A stretch of 40,562 bases of DNA, taken from NCBI GenBank assembly GCA_009692615.1, contig SHYW01000039.1, positions 1-40,562 of the forward strand, in the 5' to 3' direction. Each line of letters opens with the position of its first letter. The first letter of the stretch is position 1. The DNA comes from Deltaproteobacteria bacterium. GTDB taxonomy: Bacteria; Desulfobacterota; Binatia; UBA9968. Of the stretch, positions 18,458-40,134 are shown one piece after another. Made by a program: the position numbers and the translations under genes. The notes beneath the pieces are model-generated. The model saw only the letters and a program-made list of their open reading frames with translations. It was not told the DNA's origin and searched no databases.

Positions 18458-21160
18458 ATGCGCAGAATCGGCGGCGTGATCCTACTCATCACTTTAGTCA
18501 TGGCCGTGATGTTCTTTCGCCAAGCGATCGGACTTTACGTTGACTGGCTATGGTTTCAGGATGTTGGCTACGGGCATGTTTTTACTACCATCCTCACCTA
18601 CAAAAGCGCTCTCGGTGGTATCTCCGGCAGTCTGTTCGCGCTGTTAATCTACGTCAATTTGAAAATCGCCTCCTCGATGCCGACCGGATTTCATTACAGC
18701 GGCGCCGACAATATTATTGAACTTCCCGCCCCCGAGCTCATCGATCCGATGTTCAAGCGGCTGCTGCTGCCGGGCGCGCTGCTAGTCGGCATCATGGCGT
18801 CACCCCAAGGCGCGGCCAGTTGGGAACAAGCATCGCTGTTTTTCAACGCCGTGCCGTTCAACTTACAAGATCCGCAGTTTGGCCAGGACGTCGGCTTCTA
18901 TGTTTTTCGCTTGCCGCTGTTACGGGTCATTTACCATTGGGCGATCTTTGCCATCGGCTTGAGCATCGTCGCCTGCGCGGCGGTTTATCTTGTTTACCGC
19001 GGCATAGAATATACCGCGCGCGGCCTGTTGCTCGGCGCGCGTGCGCGCAATCACTTACTGGTTCTGTTCGGCTTGCTATTGATCGCCAAGGCCGCCGGCT
19101 ATTATCTCGACGCTTTCGACCTTTTGCACTCGAGCCGCGGTGTGTCCCATGGTGCCAGCTACGCCGATGTTTATGGCAATTTGCCGGCGCTGAGAATTCT
19201 CACTTTTCTCGCCTTGATCGCGGCGGCGCTCTGTTTCGCGCAAATTTACCGCGCCGGTTATAAATTTGTCATCCTCGGCGTCGGCGCTCTAGTCGGCGTA
19301 CACCTGCTCGGTCTCAACGCCTACCCGACGCTATTGCAGCGCTTTCGCGTCACGCCCAATGAAATCGAAGCGGAGCGGCCGTTCATCGAGCGCACGATCA
19401 AGTTCACTCGTTTTGCCTTCGGCTTGGATAAGATCACAACTAAAGATTTCCCGGCCGATGAGCAGCTCACGGCGGCGGATCTCAAACGTAACGAATCGAC
19501 GATCAGCAACATCAGGCTCTGGGACCATCGGCCGCTGCTGACCACCTACGCGCAGCTGCAAGAGATTCGCCCCTATTATAAATTTGTCGATGTCGACAAC
19601 GACCGCTACATGATCGACGGCACTTATCGCCAAGTGATGCTGTCGGCCCGCGAGCTGTCCCACCAACATCTGCAAAGCCGCAACTGGATCAACGAGCATC
19701 TGACCTTCACCCACGGCCATGGCGTGGTCTTCGGCCCGGTCAACCAGGTCACCTCGAGCGGCCAGCCAGAATTTTTTATCAAAGACATTCCGCCGGTGGC
19801 GACCACTTCGCTGAAAATCTCTCGCCCCGAGATTTACTACGGCGAACTCGCCAACGACTATGTCTTGGTGCAGACCAAATCCCAGGAATTGGATTACCCG
19901 GCGGGGGATCAAAATATTTACACGACGTACAAGGGTCAGCGCGGCGTGGCTATCGGCTCCCTATGGCGCCGCTTGGTTTTTTCCGCTCATCACGCATCGC
20001 TGCGCATCTTGCTGGCCCAGGATCTTAACGCCGAGAGCCGGATACTTTACTACCGCCAGATTCAGGAGCGGGTAAAAAAGATCGCGCCGTTTATCATTTT
20101 CGACCGGGATGCTTATGTGGTCGTCGCCCAGGGTGGCAGACTATTCTGGATCGTCGATGGCTACACGGTTTCGGATCGCTTTCCCTATTCGGAACCGCTG
20201 CGCCAGCAGGGCACTAACTATATTCGTAACTCGGTCAAAGCGGTGGTCGACGCGTACCAGGGCACGGTGGAGTTTTATACCAGCGACACCCAGGATCCGG
20301 TGATTCAATCCTTTGCCAAGACTTTTCCCAATCTGATGAAACCACTTGAAACCATGCCCGAGGATCTGCGCGCCCATATTCGTTATCCGCAGGATCTATT
20401 TTCGATTCAGGCGCGGGTCTACACGACCTATCACATGCAGGACCCGCAGGTTTTTTATAACAAAGAAGACCTGCTCAGCATCCCGCGCCAAAATGACGAA
20501 GGGCGCGAGCGCGATGTCGAGCCTTACTACACGATCATGCGCTTGCCCGGAGAAACCAAGGAAGAATTCGTCCTGTTGCTGCCGTTCACGCCGAACAAGC
20601 GCGACAACATGCGTTCCTGGTTGGCAGCGCGCAGCGATGCGCCCCACTACGGCAAACTAATCGCCCTGGACTTTCCCAAAGCGAAACTGGTTTACGGACC
20701 GAAACAGATCGATGCCCGCATCGATCAAGACACGACGATTTCCCAACAGCTGAGCCTGTGGAACCAGCGCGGCTCGCAGGTGATTCGCGGTAGTTTATTA
20801 TCGATTCCTATCGACCGCTCCTTGCTCTACGTCCAGCCGCTCTATCTGGCGGCGGAAAAGGGCTCCCTGCCGGAACTCAAGAGGGTGATCGTCGCCTTCG
20901 GCAATCGTATCGCCATGGAAGAAACCTTGGAGCAATCGCTGCAACGAGTTTTCGGCGCAGCACCGGCCAAAGAAGCGGCGCAACCGGTGGTCGCCGCGGC
21001 CCCGCAAGCGGCGGCGAAAAGTGAGCAAACCCCGGCGCGCCAGGCGCTGGACCATTTTCAACGGGCCCAGGAAAATCTCAAGCAAGGCAACTGGGCCGGC
21101 TATGGCGATGAAATGAAAAAGATCGAAGCGTTATTGAAGGAAATGCAAAAAGGCCGGTGA
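18458..21160 (+). CDS. UPF0182 family large membrane protein
   Basis: 900 aa, the usual size for UPF0182/COG1615, a family of unknown function found in many bacteria. The first ~310 residues hold about seven transmembrane segments, starting with IGGVILLITLVMAVMFF, and include the conserved VDWLWFQDVGY near residue 28. The remaining ~550 residues form a large soluble, probably extracytoplasmic, domain with family landmarks such as RNWINEHLTFTHGHG. The C-terminal ~70 residues are Ala/Glu/Lys-rich, ending in a short helical segment (HFQRAQENLKQGNWAGYG). GGAGG precedes the ATG by five bases. No partner gene suggests a role; the 98-nt gap before the TVP38 gene leaves co-transcription possible. Confidence 0.9.
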   Translation: MRRIGGVILLITLVMAVMFFRQAIGLYVDWLWFQDVGYGHVFTTILTYKSALGGISGSLFALLIYVNLKIASSMPTGFHYSGADNIIELPAPELIDPMFKRLLLPGALLVGIMASPQGAASWEQASLFFNAVPFNLQDPQFGQDVGFYVFRLPLLRVIYHWAIFAIGLSIVACAAVYLVYRGIEYTARGLLLGARARNHLLVLFGLLLIAKAAGYYLDAFDLLHSSRGVSHGASYADVYGNLPALRILTFLALIAAALCFAQIYRAGYKFVILGVGALVGVHLLGLNAYPTLLQRFRVTPNEIEAERPFIERTIKFTRFAFGLDKITTKDFPADEQLTAADLKRNESTISNIRLWDHRPLLTTYAQLQEIRPYYKFVDVDNDRYMIDGTYRQVMLSARELSHQHLQSRNWINEHLTFTHGHGVVFGPVNQVTSSGQPEFFIKDIPPVATTSLKISRPEIYYGELANDYVLVQTKSQELDYPAGDQNIYTTYKGQRGVAIGSLWRRLVFSAHHASLRILLAQDLNAESRILYYRQIQERVKKIAPFIIFDRDAYVVVAQGGRLFWIVDGYTVSDRFPYSEPLRQQGTNYIRNSVKAVVDAYQGTVEFYTSDTQDPVIQSFAKTFPNLMKPLETMPEDLRAHIRYPQDLFSIQARVYTTYHMQDPQVFYNKEDLLSIPRQNDEGRERDVEPYYTIMRLPGETKEEFVLLLPFTPNKRDNMRSWLAARSDAPHYGKLIALDFPKAKLVYGPKQIDARIDQDTTISQQLSLWNQRGSQVIRGSLLSIPIDRSLLYVQPLYLAAEKGSLPELKRVIVAFGNRIAMEETLEQSLQRVFGAAPAKEAAQPVVAAAPQAAAKSEQTPARQALDHFQRAQENLKQGNWAGYGDEMKKIEALLKEMQKGR

Positions 21161-24911: not shown

Positions 24912-26078
24912 ATGATACACCGTGCGCCCAACGCCGCCGATTTCGTTTTGGCCGCGCTACTGCTTTTCATGCCGCCACCGGCACAGGCCCAACAACCGGT
25001 GGCGAGTTTTTACTACGACGAGCGCGGCAAAGTCATCCGCCAGGAACAAGACACCAATGGCGACGGCAAAATGGATCGTTGGACCCATTACGACAGCCAA
25101 GGCCAAACCCTCCGTGTCGAACAAGATGTCAACTTCGATGGCAAAGTCGATCTGATCGTCCACTACGAAACCGGCAAAGCGGTTCGCCAAGAAAGCGCCA
25201 GTAAGAACGACGGCAAAATCGACACCTGGCTTTTTTTCGACGCCAACGGGGAAATCCAACGCAAAGGCCAAGACACCGACGGCTCGGGGCAACCGAGTTT
25301 GTGGGTTTATTATCAAAACGGTCATCCGGTGCGCAGCGAAGAAAATATCAAGTCAGCCGGTAAAGCGACTCGCACGGTGCACTTCAAAGACGGCAAGATC
25401 AGCCACATCGACGAAGATACTAACGGCGATGGCAAGGCCGATAGTTTTTCCTATTTCGACAACGGTCAGCTCGTGCGCAAAGAACTCGACCGCAAAAACA
25501 ACGGCAAGATCGATCTGCGGGGTTACTATCAAGACGGCCGGCTGGTCAAACAAGAAGAAGACCTGCGCGGCGACGGCAAGGTGAGCCGCATGGTTTATTT
25601 TCAGGGCGAAGCGGTGGTCCGCCGCGAAGAGGACAGCGCCGGGCGCGGCCGCATGGATATGATCGAGATTTTTTCTCAGGGCAGTATCACCAAACGGCTA
25701 CGCGATAGCAAAGCGAGCGGCAAATGGGACACGGTTTACTATTTTCAAGATAATCAGCTGGTACGTGAAGAGCGCGACAGCGATGGCGATGGCATCTTCG
25801 ATTTGCGCATCCTTTACGACCAGGGGCAAATCGTCGCCCAGGAAGCCGACACCAACGGCGACCGGCGCGTCGATGTTTGGGTCAAATTTGCCAACGGCGA
25901 GCAAGTCGAACAGCTCGAAGATCAAAAAAAACAAGGCAAGATTACCGCCCGCTACAGTTTTAAAAATGGCCAAGTGGTCAGCCAAGAACAAGTCGACGAC
26001 GGCGAAGCGCCGAGAAAGTCCGCGCCATTCGGCACGGTTGAAGAGGAGCTTCGAAGTATGGCAGGCTACAAATATTAG
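24912..26078 (+). CDS. Secreted protein of 13 tandem D-x-N-x-D-G repeats
   Basis: 388 aa with a signal peptide (FVLAALLLFMPPPAQA, cleavage before QQP near residue 27). Almost the whole mature part is 13 repeats of about 23-25 residues of the form D-x-N-G-D-G-K-x-D-x-W-x-Y-F-x-N-G-x-L-V-R-x-E. Loops such as DTNGDGKMD, DVNFDGKVD, DTNGDGKAD and DSDGDGIFD keep the calcium-type acidic pattern, while others (DSAGRGRMD, DQKKQGKIT) have lost acids. The strand-turn-strand spacing (YFDNGQLVRKE) recalls MORN_2/YwqK repeats, so each unit is probably a beta hairpin plus a calcium loop. First gene of a run leading to tonB, exbB and exbD. Function unknown. No ribosome binding site is obvious. Confidence 0.8.
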   Translation: MIHRAPNAADFVLAALLLFMPPPAQAQQPVASFYYDERGKVIRQEQDTNGDGKMDRWTHYDSQGQTLRVEQDVNFDGKVDLIVHYETGKAVRQESASKNDGKIDTWLFFDANGEIQRKGQDTDGSGQPSLWVYYQNGHPVRSEENIKSAGKATRTVHFKDGKISHIDEDTNGDGKADSFSYFDNGQLVRKELDRKNNGKIDLRGYYQDGRLVKQEEDLRGDGKVSRMVYFQGEAVVRREEDSAGRGRMDMIEIFSQGSITKRLRDSKASGKWDTVYYFQDNQLVREERDSDGDGIFDLRILYDQGQIVAQEADTNGDRRVDVWVKFANGEQVEQLEDQKKQGKITARYSFKNGQVVSQEQVDDGEAPRKSAPFGTVEEELRSMAGYKY

Positions 26079-26117
26079 AGATTTCAAAGTTCTCTGCCAC
26101 TCGCAGCAAGTGTGAAT

Positions 26118-26147
26118 TTGCCCCGGGAACAAGAAATCAAGTAGAAT
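26118..26147 (+). promoter_or_regulatory. Possible sigma70 promoter
   Basis: TTGCCC (26118-26123) and TAGAAT (26142-26147) with an 18-base spacer precede the lipoprotein gene start by 21 nt. It may give an internal start within the repeat-protein/TonB run. Confidence 0.35.
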
Positions 26148-26168
26148 CGGTTTTGTAAAGTTTGAATT

Positions 26169-27347
26169 ATGAGATCCGAATTACTTTGTCTGTATCTGGT
26201 AATTGTGCTGTTGGCAGGTTGCACATCTTCTTCACCTGTCCAGTATCCGCCAGGATCACGACCCTATCCTTCTCAGGGCCCAATCCCGACTAGTCCAGGG
26301 CAATCTGGTGTGAATAGTACCCAACAGAATCAACAAGACAGTTCTCGTCGATGGGAACACGCCATCAACAGTGCAAATAAAGGAGCTGTATTAGGGGGCA
26401 TGTTCGGTGGTCCATTCGGTAGCGCTGGCCTTGGAGCATTAGGGTTGCTCTACGGAATAATTACCGCCGATACAAAAATCGAGGAAGAAAATGCGCAAGC
26501 TCAAGCGGCCTACCAGAAATTGACGGAAGAAGGGAGATTGCGTTACGGGAAGGAGCTCGATAAAGACCAACAGCTCGAGGCCGCCATCGAGCAAGAGCTG
26601 GCGCGCCAGCGCGAGCTGGAAAATCAAGTCACTGGAACCGCTGGAACGGCGCCGGTGCAAACGCCAATGCGCGCAAGCAACGCGCCACAGCAACGAACAG
26701 TCAGTGGCAATCCGCCCGCGGCGAATTCCGCGCCCCAGAATGTTCAAGTTGCCGCACTCATCAAATCGCTACCGCCGCAGCCGTTTAAAAATGTCGAAAT
26801 GCGCGATGTCAATGGTGACGGCGTTCCGGATCTGTGGATTTATTACGATCCGCAAAAGCCTGGCGAAGTGATGCGCCAAGAAGAAGCTAGCAAAGGCGAT
26901 GGCCGGGTCGACACCTGGAGTTATTTCAAAGACGGCCAATTGATTCGCCGCGATGTCGACAGTAAAGGACGCGGCCGACCCGATACGGTTTTCAGTTATG
27001 ACAAGGATCAAATCGTCCGCGAAGAGCGCGATGAAGACGGCCAGGGCCGCATGACCTATCGTGCCAGCTTTCAGAACGGCCGCCTTGCCAAAGTGGAAAA
27101 GGACACCACCGGCAGCGGTCGCGCCGATCTGTGGATTTACTACGACAGCAGCCGCGACGGCGAAGTGGTGATCAAAGAAGAACGCGATCTCAACGGCGAC
27201 GGCGCCGCCGATCTGTGGAGCTATTTTGAAAATGGTCGATTGGTACGCCGTGATGTCAGCGCCATCGGCCTGGAAATTCTCTCCAAGCAGGAGCAGCTGC
27301 CGGCGCCCACCGCTGGACTCAAACCGCTCTCGACTCCCGGCAGCTAA
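26169..27347 (+). CDS. Lipoprotein with glycine zipper and six D-x-N-x-D-G repeats
   Basis: 392 aa. A lipobox (VLLAGC, C18) marks it for lipid attachment. After a Pro/Gln-rich linker, a glycine-zipper segment (GAVLGGMFGGPFGSAGLGA, about 60-90) could insert in a membrane. A charged helical stretch follows (about 105-150). From residue ~210 on come six repeats of the kind in the previous gene (loops DVNGDGVPD, DSKGRGRPD, DTTGSGRAD, DLNGDGAAD and others), each followed by W-x-Y-F/Y and a polar turn. The first ~400 bases use AT-richer codons than the repeat part, hinting that an unrelated lipoprotein head was joined to the repeats. It ends 2 nt before tonB, so translation is coupled. Likely an envelope partner of the TonB complex; inference. 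Confidence 0.8.
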   Translation: MRSELLCLYLVIVLLAGCTSSSPVQYPPGSRPYPSQGPIPTSPGQSGVNSTQQNQQDSSRRWEHAINSANKGAVLGGMFGGPFGSAGLGALGLLYGIITADTKIEEENAQAQAAYQKLTEEGRLRYGKELDKDQQLEAAIEQELARQRELENQVTGTAGTAPVQTPMRASNAPQQRTVSGNPPAANSAPQNVQVAALIKSLPPQPFKNVEMRDVNGDGVPDLWIYYDPQKPGEVMRQEEASKGDGRVDTWSYFKDGQLIRRDVDSKGRGRPDTVFSYDKDQIVREERDEDGQGRMTYRASFQNGRLAKVEKDTTGSGRADLWIYYDSSRDGEVVIKEERDLNGDGAADLWSYFENGRLVRRDVSAIGLEILSKQEQLPAPTAGLKPLSTPGS

Positions 27348-27349
27348 AC

Positions 27350-28381
27350 ATGCTCGACAACACTTCCAGCGAATGGGGAGAGTCGGAACTTTCCTCGCTC
27401 TTTCGCAGCCGGTTTTTATTTTCTTCGCTGCTGTTTCATGCACTGTTATTTTATGTCGCGCTCCACGCCGGCAGTCTCGCGCTGCCCAAAGCGGAAAACA
27501 ATCCGCCGATTTCCGTACAGCTGATGGAAGTGCGCAGCGGCTTGGACACCAAGAGCATCGGCCCTGGGCAGGGCGCCGGCGGTCCGCGCACCATGCCGAA
27601 ATTGGGCGTACCGATCCCACCGGCTGAGCGCGTTGGCAAGATCGACAGCGGCTCAGTGGAAACCAACGTCCCGGCGCCGACAACGAATAATGTCGAAGCC
27701 GTGCCGCCGCCAAAACCGGTCGCATTGCCTGGACCGAAAGTCTTGGCCCTCGACACGCGCCGCGAAGCGATCAACAGCAAAGAAACCTCAGCCGACTCGC
27801 TAGTCCGACTTCCGACCAAGGAAAGCGCTACCCATTTGCCGGCCAACGCCGCCGCCGATCTCGACGCCCATCAAAGAAGCCTAGCCGCGCTCAAAGGCGG
27901 CAGTGATAACGTCGGTATCAAAGCGCTCAAAGAAGGCGGCCAAATTCCCGGCGCGCTGGCTGGCAGCGGCACTGGCGCCGGCCCTTTCGGCGTACCCGGC
28001 GGCAGCCGTAGCGGCACCGGCATCGTCGGCGGTGGCACCGGCACCGGTACGGGCGGCGGCGGCGCCACGGGGCTCAAGGGAATTCCGGCGGCGGATTACG
28101 GTAATTATTTGAACCAGCTAAAAAAACGCGTCGAGTCGGCGTGGAAGTATCCGGATAATATTTCCGGCGTGCAAAAAGTTGCCATCCGCTTCATTCTCGA
28201 CCGCGCCGGCAAACTGACGCTCTCGGAAGTATTGGAGTCGTCAGATACGCGCTTGAACGCCAGCGCCTTAGACGCGATCCGGCGCGCTTCGCCGTTTCCA
28301 GCGATCCCCGACAGTTTAAAAGATCTCGCCAACGAGCCGATGATCATCCGCTTCGAAGTCGCCATCCGCGTGCGCGGTTAG
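27350..28381 (+). CDS. tonB: TonB-family energy transducer
   Basis: 343 aa. One N-terminal transmembrane anchor (residues ~22-44, FLFSSLLFHALLFYVAL), a long Pro/Ala periplasmic spacer, a Gly/Thr-rich low-complexity stretch (about 205-240), and a C-terminal TonB domain. The WKYP motif (VESAWKYPDN) and the closing ASPFPAIPDSL segment are characteristic. It carries energy from ExbB/ExbD to outer-membrane partners. The spacer is unusually Gly-rich rather than the Pro-Lys/Pro-Glu type of E. coli. It starts 2 nt after the lipoprotein stop, and exbB follows 67 nt later. No TonB-dependent receptor is in the window. It could equally be a TolA-like protein acting with the Tol-like pair that follows. 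Confidence 0.85.
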   Translation: MLDNTSSEWGESELSSLFRSRFLFSSLLFHALLFYVALHAGSLALPKAENNPPISVQLMEVRSGLDTKSIGPGQGAGGPRTMPKLGVPIPPAERVGKIDSGSVETNVPAPTTNNVEAVPPPKPVALPGPKVLALDTRREAINSKETSADSLVRLPTKESATHLPANAAADLDAHQRSLAALKGGSDNVGIKALKEGGQIPGALAGSGTGAGPFGVPGGSRSGTGIVGGGTGTGTGGGGATGLKGIPAADYGNYLNQLKKRVESAWKYPDNISGVQKVAIRFILDRAGKLTLSEVLESSDTRLNASALDAIRRASPFPAIPDSLKDLANEPMIIRFEVAIRVRG

Positions 28382-28422
28382 GCGCTCATTTCGTTGCATT
28401 AATTTTGATTTAAGGTAATCAT

Positions 28423-28440
28423 CTTCCGAACCTTCGGAAG
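28423..28440 (+). promoter_or_regulatory. Hairpin overlapping the exbB ribosome binding site
   Basis: CTTCCGAA-CC-TTCGGAAG forms an 8-bp stem with a two-base loop. Its 3' arm runs into AAGGA (28438-28442), the ribosome binding site six bases before ATG 28449, so folding would partly hide it. Confidence 0.5.
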
Positions 28441-28448
28441 GAACAGAA

Positions 28449-29075
28449 ATGCAGCAGCAGGGTCTCGATCTTCTCGACATCATTCATAAAGGCGCCATTG
28501 CGACTTATCCGTTAATTTTGTTGTCGGTGCTCAGCGTCACCGTCGTGCTCGAGCGCTTTTGGTCGCTGAAAAATTTGAGCTCGATCACTTTGCGCATCAC
28601 CGAATCGCTGCTCGATCCGCTGCGCAAGGGCCAGCGCGATCTCGCCATCGCCATGTGCAAGCAGCACAACGATTGTCCGGTGGGAAGAATCGTTCTTAAT
28701 ATCCTCAACCACGACAGCGCCGCCCACCCGGAACTCACCAACAGCGTCGCTGTCGAAGCGATGTTCGAGGAGGCCCAACGGCTGAAGAAAAATCTCTGGA
28801 TTCTCGGCACCGTCGCCAGCAGCGCGCCGTTCATCGGCCTGCTCGGCACCGTGGTGGGCATCATTAAATCATTTGAGAGCATGGCGGTGGCCGGTACCGG
28901 CGGCTTCGCTGTCGTCGCCGCCGGCATTTCTGAAGCCCTGGTGGCGACCGCCTTGGGCCTCGGTGTGGCGATCATCGCGGTGATATTTTACAACTACTTT
29001 CAAACCCGCATCGCAAGTTTGAACGGCCTGTTCCGCATCCAAGTCGGCAAAGTAATCCACAGTATTAGCATCTGA
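28449..29075 (+). CDS. exbB: MotA/TolQ/ExbB-type proton channel
   Basis: 208 aa inner-membrane protein with three transmembrane helices, near residues 16-36, 113-135 and 150-178. The family core is clear: SSAPFIGLLGTVVGIIKSF, then GISEALVATALGLGVAI. With ExbD it makes a proton channel that powers TonB (or TolA). ExbB and TolQ cannot be told apart by sequence alone; the following gene is ExbD/TolR-like and tonB precedes, so exbB is preferred. Length is slightly under that of E. coli ExbB. Its ribosome binding site lies in a small hairpin. Confidence 0.9.
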   Translation: MQQQGLDLLDIIHKGAIATYPLILLSVLSVTVVLERFWSLKNLSSITLRITESLLDPLRKGQRDLAIAMCKQHNDCPVGRIVLNILNHDSAAHPELTNSVAVEAMFEEAQRLKKNLWILGTVASSAPFIGLLGTVVGIIKSFESMAVAGTGGFAVVAAGISEALVATALGLGVAIIAVIFYNYFQTRIASLNGLFRIQVGKVIHSISI

Positions 29076-29085
29076 GCAACCAGCC

Positions 29086-29508
29086 ATGTCGATGACACCC
29101 TTGGGCGGCGACGACAACTCGGACATCGTCGCGGAAATTAACATCACGCCCCTGACCGATATTTTTCTCGTGCTGCTGATCATTTTCATGATCACCAGCT
29201 CGGCGATGATCGAGTCGGGCGGCAAAGTGAATCTGCCCAAAGCGGTCGCCACTCGCTCGGAGTCGCGCGGCACCACGGTGACGCTCACGCCCAAGCACGA
29301 GATCTTCGTCAATCAGAAAAAAGTCAGCGAAGATAGTTTGGAAAAAACTCTCCAAGAGGCGCTCAATGGCAACGCCGATAAGACGGTGATTCTGCGCGGC
29401 GACCGCGATGTCTTGTTGGGCGACACCGTCAAAGTCATGTCGATCATCAAGCGTGCCGGAGCGACAGAAATCGCCATCGCCGCCGAAGCTGAAACCAAGG
29501 CCCGATAA
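29086..29508 (+). CDS. exbD: ExbD/TolR-type biopolymer transport protein
   Basis: 140 aa with one N-terminal transmembrane helix and a periplasmic domain. The signature EINITPLTDIFLVLLIIFM contains the essential proton-carrying Asp (D25). The rest (IFVNQKKVSEDSLEKTL, then DKTVILRGDRDVLLGDTV) is standard for the family. It starts 10 nt after the exbB stop and ends the plus-strand run of repeat protein, lipoprotein, tonB, exbB and exbD. Normal length; no odd features. Confidence 0.92.
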   Translation: MSMTPLGGDDNSDIVAEINITPLTDIFLVLLIIFMITSSAMIESGGKVNLPKAVATRSESRGTTVTLTPKHEIFVNQKKVSEDSLEKTLQEALNGNADKTVILRGDRDVLLGDTVKVMSIIKRAGATEIAIAAEAETKAR

Positions 29509-29575: not shown

Positions 29576-29653
29576 TTTTCACCACGAAGAGCACGAAGGA
29601 CGCGAAGGTTCGGATAATTATCGCTCCGAACTTCGTGTCCTTCGTGGTGAAAA
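29576..29653. repeat. Two-armed nonad repeat hairpin
   Basis: Left arm 29576-29614 carries period-9 units CACGAAGAG, CACGAAGGA, CGCGAAGGT; right arm 29625-29653 carries CTTCGTGTC, CTTCGTGGT. The arms start and end with TTTTCACC/GGTGAAAA and TTCGGA/TCCGAA. It lies between the convergent exbD and VWA genes and could end both transcripts. Confidence 0.8.
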
Positions 29654-29698: not shown

Positions 29699-31018
29699 TT
29701 AGCGCGCCGGCCCATCGGTGGCCGGCGGCAACTGTTGCGGGCGGCGCAGGCTGTCTTCGCGATTGCGCTCGACATCGCGCTGAATCTCGGCTGGAGTTCG
29801 ACCCAATCTTTCTACTTCCAATTTAAGCTTCTTTTCCCTCTCGAGAAACACTTCCAGCTCCAAAGACTTTTGGTTGCCCGACTGATAAAAAATCGTGATC
29901 GAATCCCGGCCGATGGAGCCGTCGCTGCCACGCGCCACTACGTCGATCTGATTTTTTCCTTCGACCACCGGCACTGCGGATGAAAAGAAGCCATCGGCGG
30001 CGAGTCGTAGCTGGGTCGCTTTCTGGCCGCTGGTTTGGTTTGTCACTTGAACAAAATCAACGCCAACAACCGAAACCTGGTCCATAACAGCTAACACATC
30101 AGCAGGACGCGCAAGAGGTGTAAACGTTCCTCCACTTTCTTTAGCTATTCCATGGACGGCCCAAGGAAAGGAAAGTACCTCGTCGCCTAGACCAAATACA
30201 TGGATTTTAATACCGGCTTTGCCAGCAAGACGCGCCGAGTTTATAGTAAGTTGCACATCAGTTTCGGAAACGCTATTGCCATCGCCAGTGGGCAATGAAG
30301 GCAAGCCATCCGTCATTAATAACTGCGCTTTAATAGCATCCTGGCGCTTAGAACTTTGACCAAGCCCCATCAACTCACGGATACCGAGCCTTATACCATC
30401 AACCATATTGGTACCACCGTTAGGACCGGCCCAATATACTTGGTCTAGCACGCGCCGCACTTGATCGAAATCTTGTGTCAAAGTCTGCACCAACCTCGCT
30501 TCCTTCGCAAAAGTAATGATGCCGACTCTTGTGCTTTGAGCGTTGAGTTGCGCTAGCAAGCGTTTTGACGCGATGATTTCGGCGCCAAAAATCGAATGGC
30601 GCAAGTTATACCGCGTCGGCTCATATTGTGGCGGCCCTACTCCAATACCGCGCCGGGAAATACTGATCTGTGGTGCCGGTCGTGCAGGCCCGCCGAAAAG
30701 ATATTTTTCAGGAAGTTCTGATTGAGTGGCAAATTCAGACCCCGCAAACTCGGCCGTGCTGCCGGAAGTATCGATAACCAGAAAAATATCGACGTTGGCG
30801 GAGCGGCCGGCATCGCGCGCGACTTTGCCGCTGACAAATAGTGAAGGCTGATCCTGGGGCAAACGGCTGCCGTCTTTGGGCGAAAGTATTTGCACACGCG
30901 GCTCGCCGGCCCAAGAGGTAACCGGTCCAATCAGACAGATAAGAAACCAGCCAATGGCAATGATTTTTAAATGAACACGGTTCATGCTGAAAATTCCCAG
31001 ACGCCCAAACGCTAACAT
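29699..31018 (-). CDS. Secreted VWA-domain protein
   Basis: 439 aa (or 428 from the second ATG, 30985). A signal peptide is seen (IIAIGWFLICLIGPVTSWAG). The VWA domain (about 76-345) has a full MIDAS site: DTSGST (D83, S85, S87), GGTNM and MTDG. A beta-sandwich-like segment (VDFVQVTNQTSGQKATQL) and a charged helical tail with LEVERLGRTPAEIQRDVERN follow. VWA proteins bind partners through a metal ion. ATG 31018 has GGGGGT upstream; ATG 30985 gives a more usual signal peptide, so the start is open. The middle of the gene (about 30040-30730) is visibly AT-richer than both ends. It is convergent with exbD and divergent from the coiled-coil protein gene. Confidence 0.82.
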   Translation of the reverse strand: MLAFGRLGIFSMNRVHLKIIAIGWFLICLIGPVTSWAGEPRVQILSPKDGSRLPQDQPSLFVSGKVARDAGRSANVDIFLVIDTSGSTAEFAGSEFATQSELPEKYLFGGPARPAPQISISRRGIGVGPPQYEPTRYNLRHSIFGAEIIASKRLLAQLNAQSTRVGIITFAKEARLVQTLTQDFDQVRRVLDQVYWAGPNGGTNMVDGIRLGIRELMGLGQSSKRQDAIKAQLLMTDGLPSLPTGDGNSVSETDVQLTINSARLAGKAGIKIHVFGLGDEVLSFPWAVHGIAKESGGTFTPLARPADVLAVMDQVSVVGVDFVQVTNQTSGQKATQLRLAADGFFSSAVPVVEGKNQIDVVARGSDGSIGRDSITIFYQSGNQKSLELEVFLEREKKLKLEVERLGRTPAEIQRDVERNREDSLRRPQQLPPATDGPAR

Positions 31019-31104: not shown

Positions 31105-31809
31105 ATGAAAATGACCAAAGCAATCTTGCTGGCAGCGATTGTCAGCCTCGGTTACTCCATTGATGCCGCGCACGCACAATCGATCTTAGTGCTCAAGAAC
31201 GGCCGCCAGATCACCGTGCAGAGTTATCGTGAGGATGGTTCGACGATCAAGTTCAGCGGCTTAGGCGGCGAGATCGCGATTCCCAAGGATCAGATCCAAG
31301 CGATTCAAAAAGCCGGTCCAAGCGATCGGCCAGGAGTAAGCATTAGCGAGATGGAATCGGCGGCGCGACGCGCACCGACGGCACCGCAAAAAACCGCATC
31401 ATCCCCAGCGCGCGATCTCGCGCCACCGGCAAGCAGCGGAGAGAGCAAGGGCGCGGCCGAACAAGATGAAGCCAAGGAGTACCAAAAGAGACTTACTGAG
31501 GTGACGTTTAAGTTGGAAACCGCCAAACAAGACTATATCTCCGCGACCCAAGGCGGCGGCACGGCCAACAATGTTAGCAAGGATGGTTTGAAAAGCTGGG
31601 CGATGGACTTGGCGTCGCGCATTCACGACTCGCAAAAGGTCGCCGGTGGCGGCGGCGCGGGTTCGACACCGCCGACCTATCCCTACGCGCCCAACTATAC
31701 GGCTAAAGAAAAAGAATTGAGCGATCTGCGCAGCCGCATCGACAGCCTACAAAAAGAACGCGACGCCTTGGTCCAGGAAATGAAAAGCAAAAACCTGCCG
31801 GTCAATTGA
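31105..31809 (+). CDS. Secreted protein, small beta domain plus coiled coil, unknown function
   Basis: 234 aa. Signal peptide (AILLAAIVSLGYSIDAAHA, cleavage before QSI near residue 25). Residues 27-70 form a small beta-rich unit (LVLKNGRQITVQSY, then GGEIAIPKDQIQAI), a pattern common in periplasmic proteins but not assignable. The middle is Ala/Pro/Ser-rich and two segments (about 125-150 and 205-230; KEKELSDLRSRIDSLQKERD) are predicted coiled coil. An ATG at 31111 is an alternative start. The gene is divergent from the VWA gene and convergent with aroQ, with an 11-nt gap. No function is proposed. Confidence 0.72.
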   Translation: MKMTKAILLAAIVSLGYSIDAAHAQSILVLKNGRQITVQSYREDGSTIKFSGLGGEIAIPKDQIQAIQKAGPSDRPGVSISEMESAARRAPTAPQKTASSPARDLAPPASSGESKGAAEQDEAKEYQKRLTEVTFKLETAKQDYISATQGGGTANNVSKDGLKSWAMDLASRIHDSQKVAGGGGAGSTPPTYPYAPNYTAKEKELSDLRSRIDSLQKERDALVQEMKSKNLPVN

Positions 31810-33901: not shown

Positions 33902-35098
33902 CTAATAGTTCTTGATCTGTTCGAGATAGTTTTCGTAGTTGCGGCGGATTTCGCGCAAGGAGTCGCCGCCAAACTTTTCTAAAAAAACCTTGGCGACTTC
34001 AAAGGCCACCACCGATTCGCCGACCACCGCGGCGGCCGGGGCGGCGCAGACATCCGAGCGCTCCACCGACGCGTCGGTCACTTGCTTCGTGCGCGTGTCC
34101 ACCGATTGCAAAGGACTCATGAGGGTCGAGATTGGCTTCATGGCGACCCGCACCACCAACGGCGACCCGTTGGTCATGCCGCCTTCGGTGCCGCCGGAAT
34201 TGTTGCTGCCGCGGTAAAATCCGGTGGGCACGATCCGCGGCGTGCCTTCGCCGACCATCTTGGCCGGATCGAAGAAAATTTCGTCATGCACCTGGGAGCC
34301 GCGCCGCTTCGCCATTTCGAAGCCGAGGCCGATCTCGACCCCTTTCATCGCTTGAATGCTCATCAGCGCCTGCGCCAAGCGGCCGTCGAGCTTGCGATCC
34401 CATTGGGTGTGCGAGCCCAATCCAGGCGGCAATCCGAGAGTGACGACTTCGAAAACTCCACCCAGCGTGTTGCCTTCTTTTTTGCACTCTTCGATGAGCG
34501 CGATCATTTTTTCTTCGGCGGCGCTATCGGCCGTGCGCACCGGCGATTCTTCGCTACGCTCGAAAGTTTCGGCGTAGGTCAGGCCGTCCAAATTCGCCGT
34601 GACATTGCCGATAGAGCGGATATAACCCATGACGCGAATGCCGAAGGGCGCGAGCAACTGTTTGGCGAAGGAACCCACCGCGGTGCGCGCCACGGTTTCG
34701 CGCGCGCTGGCGCGCTCGAGAATATCGCGAATATCGGCGCGGTCGTATTTGAGTACGCCGTTCAGATCGGCGTGGCCCGGTCGCGGTTTGGTCACGGCGA
34801 TCTTGTCGTCGCGGTCCGCGGCATTGGGCGACATTTTTTTCGTCCAATTTTTCCAGTCGCGGTTTTCGATGCCGAGAGCCACCGGCGACCCCATGGTCTC
34901 GCCCCAACGGATGCCGGAACGGATTTGCGCTTCGTCCTTTTCGATCAGCATACGCCCGCCGCGGCCATAGCCTTGCTGGCGGCGCCAGAGGTCGTGATTA
35001 ATTTTATCGATATCGAGAGGAAAACCGGCGGGCACCCCGTCGACGATCATGGTCAGGCAGGGGCCGTGGGATTCGCCGGCCGTAACATAGCGCAACAT
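33902..35098 (-). CDS. aroC: Chorismate synthase
   Basis: 398 aa, FMN-dependent enzyme making chorismate from EPSP. Signatures are present: GESHGPCLTMIVDGVPAG at the N-terminus, RRQQGYGRGGRM, RPGHADLNG, and RASARETVARTAVGS. The C-terminal KPISTLMSPLQSVDTRT and the Arg-Ser motif (VERSDVCAAPAA) are also standard. The length and composition match Actinobacteria/Firmicutes-type long AroC as well as deltaproteobacterial forms. It begins 32 nt after the pilQ stop. Confidence 0.96.
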   Translation of the reverse strand: MLRYVTAGESHGPCLTMIVDGVPAGFPLDIDKINHDLWRRQQGYGRGGRMLIEKDEAQIRSGIRWGETMGSPVALGIENRDWKNWTKKMSPNAADRDDKIAVTKPRPGHADLNGVLKYDRADIRDILERASARETVARTAVGSFAKQLLAPFGIRVMGYIRSIGNVTANLDGLTYAETFERSEESPVRTADSAAEEKMIALIEECKKEGNTLGGVFEVVTLGLPPGLGSHTQWDRKLDGRLAQALMSIQAMKGVEIGLGFEMAKRRGSQVHDEIFFDPAKMVGEGTPRIVPTGFYRGSNNSGGTEGGMTNGSPLVVRVAMKPISTLMSPLQSVDTRTKQVTDASVERSDVCAAPAAAVVGESVVAFEVAKVFLEKFGGDSLREIRRNYENYLEQIKNY

Positions 35099-35130
35099 GG
35101 GCGCACTTTACCTGATTCGTTTTCGAGAGG

Positions 35131-36384
35131 CTAGGGCCTGAGAATCGTCTGCTGCGCCACTGGACCCTCGGTTTGTTTCATCTGGTCGCGCCAAATCTGC
35201 TCGGCGTTGGGCAAGTTTTCCGCGCCCGCCGCCATGATCCGCGGCGTGATGAAAATCACTAGTTCTTCGAAATCCTTTTGCCAGGAAGATTTCTTGAATA
35301 GCCAGCCGAGGGCGGGGATGTCTTTTAGATAAGGAATACCGTTCTCGGAGTTTGAACCGGTGTCTTTCATAATCCCACCGAGCACAACGGTCTCGCCATC
35401 TTTGACCAGGACATTGACCTTGGCTTCGCGAGTATTTTCTTGCGGGATACCGTCGACGGTCTTGCCGAAATCGAGGGTGCTCGATTTAGCGCTGATGTTG
35501 AGCAAGATAAAGCCGTCGGCGGAAACCTGCGGCGTCACCTTGAGGGTAATGCCAGCGCGAATTTCCCGCAGCGCTCCCGCTTCGCCAACGGTGGCGGCGG
35601 AAGTACGTATGCGGACGATGTTCGCGCTTTCGATCATCGATTCGACGTTGTTCAACGTCACCACCGACGGGCGCGAAATAATTTTCACGTTGCCCTCGGC
35701 TTCAGCCGCCGAAAGCACGCTGGTGATGTTGTTGCCGAAATAGCCGAAGCGAAAACCCTGAGTCGGAATCACCAATTGATTGACCGTCGGCGTCGGCTGA
35801 GGACCGCCATTGAACGGCGGATTGGCGATGAAGCGATCGCTGGTACGCACCCGGCCGTTATTGAACAGCGACTCCATTTCAATGCCTAATGAACGGGTAA
35901 ACGTCGGCGTGGTTTCGATGAGATTGGATTCGATGAGCACCTGAGGTGTGCGGGTATCGAGCCGACCGATTAAGTTCTGAACATCCTCAACGCTCGCTTT
36001 GATGTCACGAACGATCAGCGTGTTAGTGCGCTGGTCCGCTTCCACTTTGCCGCGCGGACTGAGCAACGACTTGACCTTTTCGACGAGATCTTTGTCGGTG
36101 GTGGTATCGCGCTGGCCTTTCATGACCTTGGCATAGTTGACGGTCAAGTAAGCGGTCTGCAGCGGCTCGAGATTTTCTTCCGATTTCTTCGCCGCGGCGA
36201 GATTGTCGCGCTCGGTTTTCAATCGTCCCGCCGTGGAGATGCGGATGACGTTGCCCGTCTCGTCCTTACCCAAACCATTGGTATCGATGATCACGTCCAT
36301 CGCCTGATCCCAAGGAACTTCGATCAAGCGCACGGTGACTTTGCGATTGACGTCGTCAGTGACAACGATATTTTTACCGCTCAC
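35131..36384 (-). CDS. pilQ: PilQ secretin C-terminal fragment
   Basis: 417 aa read from a GTG at 36384, which is really an internal codon (the same frame stays open upstream as KDADIKNVFRLLGEVSGKN). It contains the STN/secretin N0-N1 part (VTDDVNRKVTVRLIEVPWDQAMD), a secretin N domain (AYLTVNYAKV, then NTLIVRDIKASVEDV), and the secretin barrel ending in VLVKDGETVVLGGIMKDT and ELVIFITPRIM. This is the outer-membrane pore of the type IV pilus. See the whole-locus entry: the AMIN part is out of frame by one base at the A-run 36440-36446. Confidence 0.88.
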   Translation of the reverse strand: MSGKNIVVTDDVNRKVTVRLIEVPWDQAMDVIIDTNGLGKDETGNVIRISTAGRLKTERDNLAAAKKSEENLEPLQTAYLTVNYAKVMKGQRDTTTDKDLVEKVKSLLSPRGKVEADQRTNTLIVRDIKASVEDVQNLIGRLDTRTPQVLIESNLIETTPTFTRSLGIEMESLFNNGRVRTSDRFIANPPFNGGPQPTPTVNQLVIPTQGFRFGYFGNNITSVLSAAEAEGNVKIISRPSVVTLNNVESMIESANIVRIRTSAATVGEAGALREIRAGITLKVTPQVSADGFILLNISAKSSTLDFGKTVDGIPQENTREAKVNVLVKDGETVVLGGIMKDTGSNSENGIPYLKDIPALGWLFKKSSWQKDFEELVIFITPRIMAAGAENLPNAEQIWRDQMKQTEGPVAQQTILRP

Positions 36385-37019
36385 TTCGCCGAGTAGACGA
36401 AAAACATTCTTGATATCGGCATCTTTGAATTCGAGGGAATTTTTTTGGCGCTGTATCTCGTGTCCGCGCCGATCACTCTATCGCTGCCCAAGGGTTGCGC
36501 CGCCGACCTCTTAGTCGGCGCGGCCGCTGCGGCAGCCGTTGCCGTCGTTTCGGGCGTACGAATATCGATGCGCGCCCCGCCGCGCACCAGAGTCACGTCT
36601 TTTTTTGTCGAGAAGCTCGGGTTGACGGGACCGACTACCAGGCGAATGCCATTATCTTCGGGCACCACCGTGTAGGCGGGCACAGTGGCAGCAGCCGCAT
36701 CGATGGTCACGCGGACGCTGCCATCAAGGTTAGTCAGGCGTAATGTCGACAGCCAATGGGTGTCGATCCGGTAACTGAGCGTCTGCGCCGAGCGATTGGC
36801 GCTGTTAAAAATATCGATAACGATGCGTGCCGGTGTGGGTAATGGAAAGTGGCGAAACTCCTTTACCGGCTGGGAGAATTTCAAGAACACGCTGGTTTGC
36901 CCCTGGTCTTCGCGCACCGACAAATCTTGCAGCGTCAGCTCGGCACCGGCGGGGTTGGCTTTGCTATCACTGGCGGGCTGCGCCGCCGCTGACTTCTCTA
37001 CCGGCGCCTTGGCGACCAT
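36381..37019 (-). CDS. pilQ: PilQ AMIN-domain fragment, frameshifted
   Basis: 212 aa in a different frame from both its neighbours. It carries the AMIN domain that anchors PilQ to peptidoglycan (LTLQDLSVREDQGQTSVFLKF, then FPLPTPARIVIDIFNS and HWLSTLRLTN), and an Ala/Thr linker. The last ~15 residues (IPSNSKMPISRMFFVYSAK) are out-of-frame translation: with one more A in the run at 36440-36446 the text becomes KKNSLEFKDADIKNVFRLL, as in other PilQ proteins. ATG 37019 has no signal peptide and no good ribosome binding site, so it is not the true start. Confidence 0.8.
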   Translation of the reverse strand: MVAKAPVEKSAAAQPASDSKANPAGAELTLQDLSVREDQGQTSVFLKFSQPVKEFRHFPLPTPARIVIDIFNSANRSAQTLSYRIDTHWLSTLRLTNLDGSVRVTIDAAAATVPAYTVVPEDNGIRLVVGPVNPSFSTKKDVTLVRGGARIDIRTPETTATAAAAAAPTKRSAAQPLGSDRVIGADTRYSAKKIPSNSKMPISRMFFVYSAK

Positions 37020-37169
37020 ATTCTTTATCCGGGTTCACCACGCAAGCGCTCAAGCTTAACGACAAAAAAGCCATGATCGCAGGCAAAGCCCGTGCTTGGC
37101 GCCGTGGCGCCAAACCGGCAAGGCTGCCATCGACATTTGCTACACCGATTGTCCGCTGTGACATTTTCA

Positions 37170-37796
37170 TCACTCCGTTGCGAGCCCCATGCTCACGTCA
37201 TGTTTTTTTCGATTGCCATAAATATCGTTGCCAAACTCTTCCACGACAATTTGGTTGCGATGAATCGCTTTAACCTTGCCATCGTTGTTGCCAATCGGCG
37301 TGCCCACTTTGACGACGTAGCCGAGGCCAGCGCCATCTTCCACCATCGCTCGTGGGTCTTTAATGTCCCAGACGATGCCAACTAACTTCAGTTGCGATAA
37401 ATCGAGCTGCTCGAGGGGCGAGAGATTTTCGCGCGCCCGGGTGTTCACCTTGGCCCGCAGTGTCAGTGGACGGAACGGATCGCGCATGCCGTCCTTCACT
37501 ACCGGCGCCGGCGTCGTCCCTTGGGGGTTTTTTTTCGGCAGCTCTAAATCGACGCGCTCGCCTTTAGTAGTTTCGCTTTTCGCCTTGGCGCCCAACGTTT
37601 CTTTTAGTTTATTCTTTGCCGCGTCGCGCAGGCCCTGCAGCGATTTACCGATGCTCGCCGGCGTATCGTTGAATTTATCCACCGCATCTTTGGCTTTCTG
37701 CGACGGCATCGGGTCGGACTGCTGGGCCCGCAGCGTTGCACTGGCCGACAACCCACAGCCCAGCAGCAAAATTGATAACAGCTTCAGCCCACGCAT
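37170..37796 (-). CDS. pilP: Type IV pilus alignment lipoprotein PilP
   Basis: 208 aa. N-terminus has a hydrophobic segment with a possible lipobox (LLLGC, C14). The first ~110 residues are low in structure and charged; the C-terminal ~95 hold the beta-sandwich PilP fold (MRDPFRPL, then LEQLDLSQLKLVGIVWD, GYVVKVGTPIGNNDGKVKAI). PilP links the PilM-PilN-PilO inner-membrane platform to the secretin PilQ. It follows pilO by 6 nt; its stop overlaps the real pilQ start. The DPFRPL box and L-x-L-x-G-I-V-W motif are diagnostic. Confidence 0.9.
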   Translation of the reverse strand: MRGLKLLSILLLGCGLSASATLRAQQSDPMPSQKAKDAVDKFNDTPASIGKSLQGLRDAAKNKLKETLGAKAKSETTKGERVDLELPKKNPQGTTPAPVVKDGMRDPFRPLTLRAKVNTRARENLSPLEQLDLSQLKLVGIVWDIKDPRAMVEDGAGLGYVVKVGTPIGNNDGKVKAIHRNQIVVEEFGNDIYGNRKKHDVSMGLATE

Positions 37797-37802
37797 CTGA
37801 TT

Positions 37803-38426
37803 TTACTTCTTGCCCTTCGCAGCTTTCGCCTTGGCTTCGGCGACTTTCTTTCTTTCGGCGTCGCTAAGAAATCGGAACGCCGTGGCCACGCTGGTGGTTT
37901 CCAAAATCACACCATCGCCGGCAATGGTCGGGTTCTTGAAACCGATGCTGTCGATGTTGATCAAACGATTGAGCCGGCCAACCTCATCGAAGAAGCTGAC
38001 GGTATTATGAAACCTGCCCTTGACCGTAATATCGACCGGCACTTCAGCGTAAAACTCCTGAAAGGTTTCCGCGCGCGGGCGAAACAACAGCACATCGAGA
38101 CCGGCTTGCTGCGCCTTGGCGGAGATGCTCGTCAGCAACAGCGCCATCTGCTTGTCGTTAGGCAATTGCGCCAAGGCCTTTTTCAGTTCCATGTCCAATT
38201 GCTTGAGATCGCGCTGCAGGCGCGGCAAGTTTGCCGCCTTTTGCTGTTTTACGGTTTTTTCATTGCGGGCGATTTCAACGCTATCGGCGAGCTTGGCCAC
38301 TTCATCGGAGCGCGGGCTATAAATGAAACTGTAATAGAGCGCGCCGAGCAAAATAATCGCCGCCGCCAGGATACCGATGCGCTGAATCCTCGGCCGCTCT
38401 AGTAAATTGTCGAGCAGCTGGTTCAA
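37803..38426 (-). CDS. pilO: Type IV pilus alignment protein PilO
   Basis: 207 aa. One transmembrane helix (residues ~17-36, IGILAAAIILLGALYYSF), a coiled coil (about 45-95), and a ferredoxin-like periplasmic domain with PNDKQMALLLTSISAKAQQAG and the VDITVKGRFHNTVSFFDEVGRL segment typical of PilO. It dimerises with PilN. Start ATGA overlaps the pilN stop by 4 nt. The C-terminal Lys/Ala tail (EAKAKAAKGKK) is short and charged. Confidence 0.92.
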   Translation of the reverse strand: MNQLLDNLLERPRIQRIGILAAAIILLGALYYSFIYSPRSDEVAKLADSVEIARNEKTVKQQKAANLPRLQRDLKQLDMELKKALAQLPNDKQMALLLTSISAKAQQAGLDVLLFRPRAETFQEFYAEVPVDITVKGRFHNTVSFFDEVGRLNRLINIDSIGFKNPTIAGDGVILETTSVATAFRFLSDAERKKVAEAKAKAAKGKK

Positions 38427-39037
38427 CCCTTTTTCTCCTCTTTTTTAACCGCCGGCGCTTTGGCTTTTGTCGCAGGCTCGGGAACGGGTTCATCGGGTTG
38501 ATATAACACGCCGGCCTTGATGGCGAATTTTTGATAGCCGACGGACGTGCCCGCGCCTTGGGTGGTTTCCACCAGCTCGACGGTTTTGAAATGCTTCGAC
38601 GCTTCCAAGCCGGAAATAAAATCGGCAACGGTCTTGTTGTCAATTGCCAGGCCATTAAGCGTGACGTTGCCGCCGGTTTCTTTGAGTTCGGTCAACCACA
38701 ATGTCGCCGGCGTCGCCTGGGCGAGATTCTCCATCACCAATACCGGACCGCTTTTTTTCTTATTGAGATCGGCGATGATTTTGTTCTTGCCGCGCAGATC
38801 CTTGATCTTGTTTTGCAAGTCGCCCACTTCTTTGACTTTCACGTTGAGCGTTTGCAGCTCGTTGCGCAGTGTCGCGAGCTCAGTTTCCAGGGAATTCAGC
38901 TGAAACATTTGATAAATATGAACGGCGATAATTGCGACGATTCCACAAGCCAAAACCGTTCCACCGATAATAATCTCCCGGCGCCGGTTGACTTCGGCAG
39001 CGAGTTGCTTGAAGGGCAGTAAATTGATTTTTATCAT
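38423..39037 (-). CDS. pilN: Type IV pilus assembly protein PilN
   Basis: 204 aa. It begins MIKINLLPFK, the conserved cytoplasmic tail that binds PilM, then a transmembrane helix (~23-42, IIIGGTVLACGIVAIIAV), a coiled coil (about 50-90) and a ferredoxin-like domain (WLTELKETGGNVTLNGLAID; FISGLEASKHFKTVEL). The last ~45 residues are an Ala/Pro/Lys-rich tail, slightly longer than usual. Overlaps pilM by 4 nt (ATGA) and pilO by 4 nt. Confidence 0.92.
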   Translation of the reverse strand: MIKINLLPFKQLAAEVNRRREIIIGGTVLACGIVAIIAVHIYQMFQLNSLETELATLRNELQTLNVKVKEVGDLQNKIKDLRGKNKIIADLNKKKSGPVLVMENLAQATPATLWLTELKETGGNVTLNGLAIDNKTVADFISGLEASKHFKTVELVETTQGAGTSVGYQKFAIKAGVLYQPDEPVPEPATKAKAPAVKKEEKKG

Positions 39038-40134
39038 CGATCTCCCGGTCGTCGGATCGACAATCCCGCAGCCACGGCAAAACTCGGTGCGCCTTCGAGT
39101 AAAAACTCGCGCTCGATGTTTTTGCTGACGGTGAAGCTACGAAACGGCTCACTCAGCCTCGCCGGCACCCCGAGGCGCTCCTCAATCACGGTGCGCAAAC
39201 CTGTTAGCTTTGCGCCACCGTCGCTGAGATAGATCAATTTAAGCCCATCGCCCTCTTCGGAGGCCACCGCACCATAGAGACTCACGGTGCGGCGAATTTC
39301 CTCGGCCAACTCCTCAGCAGTCGGCCGCACCAATGCGGCCAGATCCAATCCCTGGGCTTCCTCCGACCGACCCGTCATCTTGAAATTCTCCGCCGCGGCC
39401 AAGGACAAATTAGCCTGGGCCGCCAACGACTCGCTAAAGTAAGCGCCGCCGAAAGAAAGATCGCCGGTGAAAATAGATACACCATTTTGCAGCAGACTGA
39501 TGCTCGTGTTCTGCGCGCCGATATGGATCAACCCCACCATGCCGCGAGTTGTCTCGGCAGCATAGTTGGTCTCGAACATATTTTCCAAGGCAAAATAATC
39601 GACATGCATCACCGCCGGTTCCAGACCGGCCTCTTCGATGGCATCGGTATAGCTGTTGACGATCTCTTTTTTCACCGCCACCAACAGCACGTCCATCTTG
39701 TTGCCATCTTCGGTTTTGCTGAGAATCTGATAATCGAGATTGACGTTTTCGAGATTTTCCGGGATGACATTCTGCGCTTCAAATTCGATATTCGCTTCGA
39801 GCTCGGCCTGTTCCTGAACCGGCATCTGAACTTTTTTCATGATCACGGCCCGGCCGGGCACTGCGGAGATAACATTTTTCGCGCTGACGCCGGATTCCCG
39901 GATCAACGCACGAATCGCTTCAGCCACCGATTTGGTATCGACAACCATGTTGTTTTGGATGGCATTTTCCGGCAGCGGCGCTGACGCTAGCTTTACAACC
40001 AGGTAACCATTGCGATCCACCACCGATTCGACCAGCTTGATCGAGCTTGAGCCGATATCGAGGGCAACGTAGCCGTCGTTGCTACCCAGTGATTTAAAAA
40101 ACCCGAGGTTAAAGTTTTTCCAAAAAGGTGCCAT
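39034..40134 (-). CDS. pilM: Type IV pilus assembly protein PilM
   Basis: 366 aa, actin-like ATPase (FtsA/SHS2 fold) of the cytoplasmic pilus ring. It has the nucleotide-binding phosphate-1 motif VALDIGSSSIKLVE at the N-terminus and the second phosphate motif VGLIHIGAQNTSISLL, then the adenosine-binding LIYLSDGGAKLTGL. It recruits PilN and the motor ATPases. Start ATG 40134 is 3 nt after the XRE gene stop; its end overlaps pilN. Typical length for PilM. Confidence 0.95.
   Translation of the reverse strand: MAPFWKNFNLGFFKSLGSNDGYVALDIGSSSIKLVESVVDRNGYLVVKLASAPLPENAIQNNMVVDTKSVAEAIRALIRESGVSAKNVISAVPGRAVIMKKVQMPVQEQAELEANIEFEAQNVIPENLENVNLDYQILSKTEDGNKMDVLLVAVKKEIVNSYTDAIEEAGLEPAVMHVDYFALENMFETNYAAETTRGMVGLIHIGAQNTSISLLQNGVSIFTGDLSFGGAYFSESLAAQANLSLAAAENFKMTGRSEEAQGLDLAALVRPTAEELAEEIRRTVSLYGAVASEEGDGLKLIYLSDGGAKLTGLRTVIEERLGVPARLSEPFRSFTVSKNIEREFLLEGAPSFAVAAGLSIRRPGDR

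Follow-up and report, generated by a model that had tools for sequence, protein, structure and literature searches.

Hairpin-repeat proteins encoded with TonB, ExbB and ExbD in a Binatia bacterium and in other families of its phylum

The contig SHYW01000039.1 of a Deltaproteobacteria bacterium (Desulfobacterota; Binatia), analyzed here over its whole length of 40,562 nucleotides as the window, encodes two adjacent, exported-looking repeat proteins, REP1 and LPP, in one run with tonB, exbB and exbD. The window is the entire contig C39 of a 5.05-Mb genome in 186 contigs. Linkage of the repeat genes to TonB motor genes extends from the lineage of the window to further families of the phylum, and it survives an exchange of the motor. 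In relatives, receptor genes lie in the neighborhood of the repeats, and a fixed set of acidic loops within the repeats is conserved. We favor, at a level of confidence that leaves the matter evenly balanced, the reading that a TonB-ExbB-ExbD uptake system has REP1 and LPP as exported accessories, which would act as a periplasmic scaffold.

Linkage of the repeat genes to TonB motor genes

The five genes form a single run on the forward strand (24912-29508). REP1 (24912..26078) is a protein of 388 amino acids with 13 loop-plus-hairpin units and a start that, judged by eye from the sequence, resembles a signal peptide. LPP (26169..27347) is a 392-amino-acid lipoprotein that consists of a glycine-rich helix, a linker, and 6 hairpin units. 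Its lipobox cysteine (residue 18 in LAGC; 26220..26222, forward strand) is a cysteine in all 18 aligned rows, and sequence inspection placed a glycine-zipper-like stretch (26379..26462, forward strand) within a predicted helix at residues 53 to 155. The gene for the TonB-type protein (27350..28381; Pfam TonB_2) starts 2 nt after the LPP stop codon, and the N-terminal hydrophobic segment of its product carries S26-xxx-H30, again judged by eye. The genes for the ExbB/TolQ-type proton channel protein (28449..29075; Pfam MotA_ExbB) and the ExbD/TolR-type protein (29086..29508; Pfam ExbD) follow. The Pfam cut-offs were exceeded by TonB_2, MotA_ExbB, and ExbD, indicating that ExbB, ExbD, and a TonB C-terminal domain are encoded together. 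The top NCBIfam scores of the window ExbB and ExbD were to TolQ and TolR, both below cut-off, and no match to TolB or Pal was found among the seven window proteins scanned against Pfam. Coordinates and domain matches thus agree with the first-pass annotation, which had described adjacent secreted proteins with about 13 and 6 repeat units, the second of them a lipoprotein with a glycine zipper, 2 nt from tonB and with exbB and exbD downstream.

A search for LPP in 58 genomes, including that of the window, matched 22; within the class, a match to the LPP profile was found in 37 of the 148 genomes; a scan of genome contigs with LPP returned three loci, all from 'Deltaproteobacteria' metagenome-assembled genomes. 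We counted as LPP carriers 21 genomes, the window's own and G022 (partial LPP of 75 residues at a contig end) among them, all of family f1 or f2, and motor genes adjoin LPP in 21 of 21. Outside this set stand a 96-residue fragment (G015:C166, L111), a REP1 gene alone (G012:C125, L058), and two weak matches (G000:C54, E 0.004; G020:C5, E 8.6e-4), none of which had a motor match in the stretches fetched. REP1 lies upstream of LPP in 19 of the 21 genomes, and the remaining two loci (L044, L063) end at contig edges. A gene for a VWA-domain protein with a signal-peptide-like start (29699..31018 in the window, reverse strand) adjoins the cluster in 18 relatives out of 20 (the other two loci stop at contig edges), and P7, a protein of unknown function (31105..31809, forward strand), was matched in 14 of 20. 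In one relative (G010, L052:2982-4925), LPP and TonB share a 647-residue open frame with the LPP end missing, which may be an effect of assembly or deletion.

The motor itself varies beneath the repeats. At five loci (L048, L055, L056, L057, and L063), the slot between LPP and the VWA gene holds a different ExbB/ExbD pair, encoded on the opposite strand. The two genomes G014 and G020 of genus g11 share 66% identity in LPP and 73% in the VWA protein, and 31% in ExbB and 28% in ExbD. The motor of G014 is instead close to that of G011, a member of another genus (80% identity in ExbB and 66% in ExbD). These sequence comparisons are most simply read as replacement of the motor under the repeats, with LPP and the VWA protein retained. 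Consistently, repeat-linked ExbB proteins fall into three separate groups, P, A, and B (support 100/99, 94/99, and 100/99), in an ExbB tree that is midpoint-rooted with long branches and possibly false joins, of which only the separateness of these groups is used here; the P rows were picked for being repeat-linked.

Beyond this lineage, 395 genomes of the phylum were searched with the REP1 profile, and 36 gave a match: 2 belong to the window's family, 3 to family f11, and the remaining 31 to neither. The listed matches of these 31 genomes fall into 38 repeat loci, a lower bound, as at most four candidates were scored per genome. A link to TonB motor genes was found at 35 of the 38, with ExbD within 5 kb at 33 and ExbB adjacent at two more (L144, L146). 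Only 0.39 loci with ExbD within 5 kb would be expected; this and the expected count given below presume random placement, with distance limits chosen after the values had been viewed and coordinates transcribed by hand. The three exceptions are two different proteins (G177, G179) and a contig that ends within the repeat gene (G301). The usual gene order elsewhere in the phylum is a longer repeat gene, exbB, exbD, and tonB. Another search covered 85 genomes in the class of G275; of the 20 with a match, 13 were new, and ExbB adjoins the repeat at 14 of 16 new loci, the misses being L208 and L198 (the latter a contig end). This last fraction is biased towards linkage because the query, A3, was made from motor-linked rows only. 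The first-pass annotation had asked whether the repeats always neighbor tonB/exbBD and would have been refuted by repeats lying mostly away from tonB genes; in each of these three sets the outcome speaks against refutation.

Two frames in which a repeat is fused to ExbD (L149:303-1103 and L158:687-1511) are included among the 33 at distance 0, and their exclusion leaves 31 of 36. As candidate Rosetta-stone fusions (G519:C164, G429:C8), they were rejected: they are near-identical across two families and have no adjoining ExbB match, which suggests a copy that has decayed or been misplaced.

Receptors and other motors

No TonB-dependent receptor is encoded in the window. In the rest of the genome, a single receptor match was found on contig C9 (L159:1361-5948); a NikR gene (NikR_C, 95.4 bits; cut-off, 22) lies before it, and an MFS gene and a small tonB come after it. 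The earlier statement that no receptor is present thus holds for the window and fails for the genome. The genome has two ExbD matches, that of the window and one in a Tol-Pal locus on C82, where TolB_N, OmpA-domain (Pal), and TPR proteins accompany another TolQRA-type set. Since the only other ExbD is of the Tol-Pal type, the ExbBD of the window is the only evident non-Tol motor for the C9 receptor.

Elsewhere in the phylum, at least 21 of the 38 repeat loci, distributed over 18 of the 31 genomes, have a plug domain no more than 10.5 kb away, against 1.25 loci expected; the domain lies within 5.5 kb at no fewer than 18 loci and within 3 kb at 13 or more. With this proximity, and with one receptor and one non-Tol ExbD in the window's own genome, the initial proposal that the repeats take the place of a receptor as the partner of TonB is not supported. 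Within the lineage of the window and its order, 24 of 26 genomes have a plug domain. Neighbors at hand-picked loci include a receptor, two DUF4198 proteins, and FeoB (L122), NicO (L155), and a TauE protein (L145). A receptor beside one repeat operon (L148:10351-12540) scored 734.5 bits (cut-off, 825) to the NCBIfam entry 'TonB-dependent receptor, FCYXU motif-type'.

Acidic loops and predicted fold of the repeats

REP1 contains 13 nine-residue loops at a spacing of 24 to 25 residues, and LPP contains 6. Their register was fixed by hand from the hairpins of the predicted models; unit counting with a local hidden Markov model, which split units, was dropped in its favor. A loop was called complete when it matched the pattern D.[DN].[DN]G..[DE], as do 4 of 13 loops in REP1 and 2 of 6 in LPP. 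None of 2,000 shuffles per protein reached these counts (maximum, 2 for REP1 and 1 for LPP). Because just these loops match the full pattern, the loop is not of the calcium type in every copy, and complete loops are fewer than the first-pass description implies.

Completeness was then read loop by loop from 17 aligned REP1 and 18 aligned LPP rows, gapped rows being dropped. All loop coordinates are on the forward strand. In REP1, loop 1 (residues 47-55; 25050..25076) is complete in 17/17 rows, loop 2 (residues 72-80; 25125..25151) in 16/17, and loops 6 (residues 169-177; 25416..25442) and 11 (residues 289-297; 25776..25802) in 15/17 each. Loops 4, 5, 8, and 13 are complete in 4/14, 3/13, 5/17, and 7/17 rows, respectively, and loops 3, 7, 9, and 10 in none. 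Loop 12 (residues 313-321; 25848..25874; DTNGDRRVD) is complete in 0/17 rows: its acidic/amide positions score a mean of 4.0 of 4 over the 17 rows, and position 6 has R in place of G. In LPP, loops 1 (residues 213-221; 26805..26831) and 6 (residues 340-348; 27186..27212) are complete in all 18 rows, and loops 2 to 5 in 5, 1, 0, and 6 of them. This distribution across orthologues indicates that acidic sites are retained at fixed places and lost elsewhere. Sequence matches to EF-hand, dockerin, and FG-GAP all remained below cut-off. On the reading favored here, a divalent ion, calcium for example, is probably bound by a fixed subset of these loops.

AlphaFold modeled REP1 (17 sequences) with a mean predicted local distance difference test score (pLDDT) of 89.8 and a predicted template modeling score (pTM) of 0.74, placing a run of hairpins at residues 31 to 364. 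Modeling of the repeat, which the first-pass annotation had suggested as a solenoid, gave a single-layer ladder of hairpins, predicted with high confidence. For LPP (pLDDT, 75.3; pTM, 0.45), the model consists of a signal helix, the helix at residues 53 to 155, and hairpins at residues 209 to 363. The top structural neighbor in VIA-align was an engineered OspA (2fkj; Z 13.4; root mean square deviation [rmsd], 12.1; 302 residues aligned). MORN1 (6t69, 6t4r) aligned with Z 8.4 and rmsd 5.3 to 5.8; for repeat proteins, a Z below about 13 may reflect only a common arrangement. The top Foldseek rows, Rhs, teneurin, and Tc chains, had TM-scores below 0.2, a local likeness of hairpins only, and kinship with them was rejected. 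Sequence searches of solved structures found nothing at E <= 1 with query A1 and two weak matches with query A2, both beyond the hairpin array. No Pfam family matched REP1 or LPP above cut-off, the MORN_2 (PF07661) score of REP1 being 22.5 bits (gathering cut-off, 29.6). The best named NCBIfam match was NF050087, Lsa25.6, for both REP1 (58.6 bits; E 5.9e-16) and LPP (35.0 bits; E 1e-8), neither of which reaches the curated cut-off of 150 bits. Three repeat proteins from the phylum matched the same profile with E values of 2.4e-22, 7.5e-17, and 6.4e-4.

Readings of the cluster and likeness to known systems

If REP1 and LPP are accessory parts of an uptake system, TonB-ExbB-ExbD would drive receptor-mediated uptake across the outer membrane, with REP1 most likely free in the periplasm and LPP held at a membrane via the attached lipid and the glycine-rich helix. 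A divalent ion in a subset of the acidic loops, for example calcium, would stiffen the ladder, and the ladders could position or support TonB/ExbD or pass on cargo arriving from the receptor. We infer the location, the ion binding, the contact with TonB/ExbD, and the scaffold role, and the fold is a model prediction. A wider proposal is more doubtful, and we hold it as a tentative possibility: the repeats may represent a recurrent, undescribed extra component of TonB systems in the phylum. Such an exported ladder of hairpins would couple or steady force transmission by TonB in the periplasm, and selection would have kept it even where a distant pair took the place of ExbB and ExbD.

Several observations weigh against a role in receptor-driven uptake. 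In the lineage of the window, no receptor was seen next to the REP1/LPP pair. Among 16 receptor loci fetched from the lineage and its order, seven have a small tonB near the receptor, as does the window's own genome, so that the TonB of the cluster may serve something else; two of the 16 (L172, L176) have a further ExbB/ExbD close to the receptor. For 13 of the 31 phylum genomes, no plug domain within 10.5 kb was among the matches listed; some of the contigs concerned are short, which does not apply to G277, G297, G406, G467, and G519. A window-like ExbBD with no repeats nearby is retained in three genomes that lack LPP (G006, G007, and G019), which indicates that the motor can do without the repeats. 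The reverse also occurs. A lipoprotein-like protein of family f11 with five repeats and about 155 residues (L061, L095-L110) stands alone, with no TonB, ExbB, or ExbD match at any of its 17 loci in 16 genomes (fetched stretch, E <= 0.01); in the three f11 genomes tested by Pfam, ExbD sits on other contigs. Likewise, a second REP1-like gene of G012 (L058:10639-11679) lies on a 17.4-kb contig without LPP or motor matches. Residue +2 of LPP bears on the reading in both directions: it is D or E in 13 of 18 rows (D in 9, E in 4), which counts for it, and T in the LPP of the window, which counts against it. In E. coli, D at this position of a lipoprotein, and more weakly E, could favor retention in the inner membrane, a rule that is not universal.

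The main rival to the accessory-part reading is that the repeats handle a metal or metallophore. The acidic loops would then bind metal that has been imported into the periplasm, buffering or chaperoning it, and shared regulation would account for the TonB link. FeoB and DUF4198 at L122, NicO at L155, the NikR gene ahead of the only receptor of the window's genome, and the fixed places of the acidic loops are consistent with this rival. We nonetheless consider it unlikely, given that the loop pattern is nearer to calcium loops (of the EF-hand, dockerin, and FG-GAP kinds, below cut-off as stated) than to transition-metal sites, that most REP1 and LPP loops are incomplete, and that the metal context comes from a few hand-picked loci.

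Somewhat less probable still is a surface machine, serving adhesion, gliding, or cargo, in which TonB has the repeats rather than a receptor as its outer partners and the VWA protein perhaps takes part. The lack of a receptor in the window, the small tonB genes near receptors, and the conserved VWA gene beside the cluster would suit such a machine, as would the proposal that vWA proteins beside TolQR-like motors act as force transducers (PMC12204202). However, related repeat genes of other families sit with a receptor, and the receptor of the window's own genome has no other non-Tol ExbD available. Least probable of all, and improbable by any measure, is that REP1 and LPP are surface adhesins, relatives of the Lsa25.6 family of Leptospira, and came into one operon with TonB genes by chance. 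Lsa25.6 is their strongest named profile match and is also matched by the three phylum repeat proteins, but the REP1 and LPP scores are far under the cut-off, and chance sharing is unlikely because the linkage is frequent and outlasts motor exchange.

An inverted repeat of the CACCACGAAG...CACGAAGG type lies between exbD and the VWA gene (29580-29649; two matches versus none in shuffles). Promoter-like (6) and terminator-like (15) matches, with shuffled means of 3.3 and 11.4, were not used as evidence. Farther downstream, the reverse strand carries genes for chorismate synthase, PilQ, and PilM (33902-40134), and upstream, a 900-residue protein (18458-21160) has PRK02509/PRK00068 profile matches below cut-off.

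Regarding known systems, the Leptospira adhesin profile recognizes the repeat unit at a score far below its cut-off; Lsa25.6 itself is reported to bind laminin, plasminogen, and fibrinogen (PMC7662565). The vWA force transducers proposed beside TolQR-like motors (PMC12204202) resemble the cluster in having a VWA gene next to the motor; the cluster differs in its TonB gene and in the encoding of the VWA protein on the opposite strand. TonB systems are known, and for the hairpin-repeat component beside TonB genes no account was found in the literature searched, which comprised accessible parts of PMC11247825, PMC7662565, and PMC12204202, with subscription journals mostly outside. MORN and MORN_2 repeats and the single-layer beta sheet of OspA have a hairpin ladder in common with the predicted model, but there is no above-cut-off sequence relation, the rmsd is high, and the acidic loops are on the side of the window proteins. 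Tol-Pal has a related motor, and in this genome it is a separate locus on C82. The usual description of TonB systems comprises three proteins plus receptors. The cluster shares the motor genes of TonB-ExbB-ExbD systems, with receptors nearby in many relatives. It differs in that the operon begins with a hairpin-ladder repeat gene and in that two of these, as well as VWA and P7, are present in the lineage of the window. A repeat protein encoded at the head of the operon in many families, and outlasting replacement of the motor, suggests a missing TonB part, and could open a direct route to the questions of how TonB reaches across the periplasm and operates there and of how bacteria of this phylum acquire scarce nutrients.

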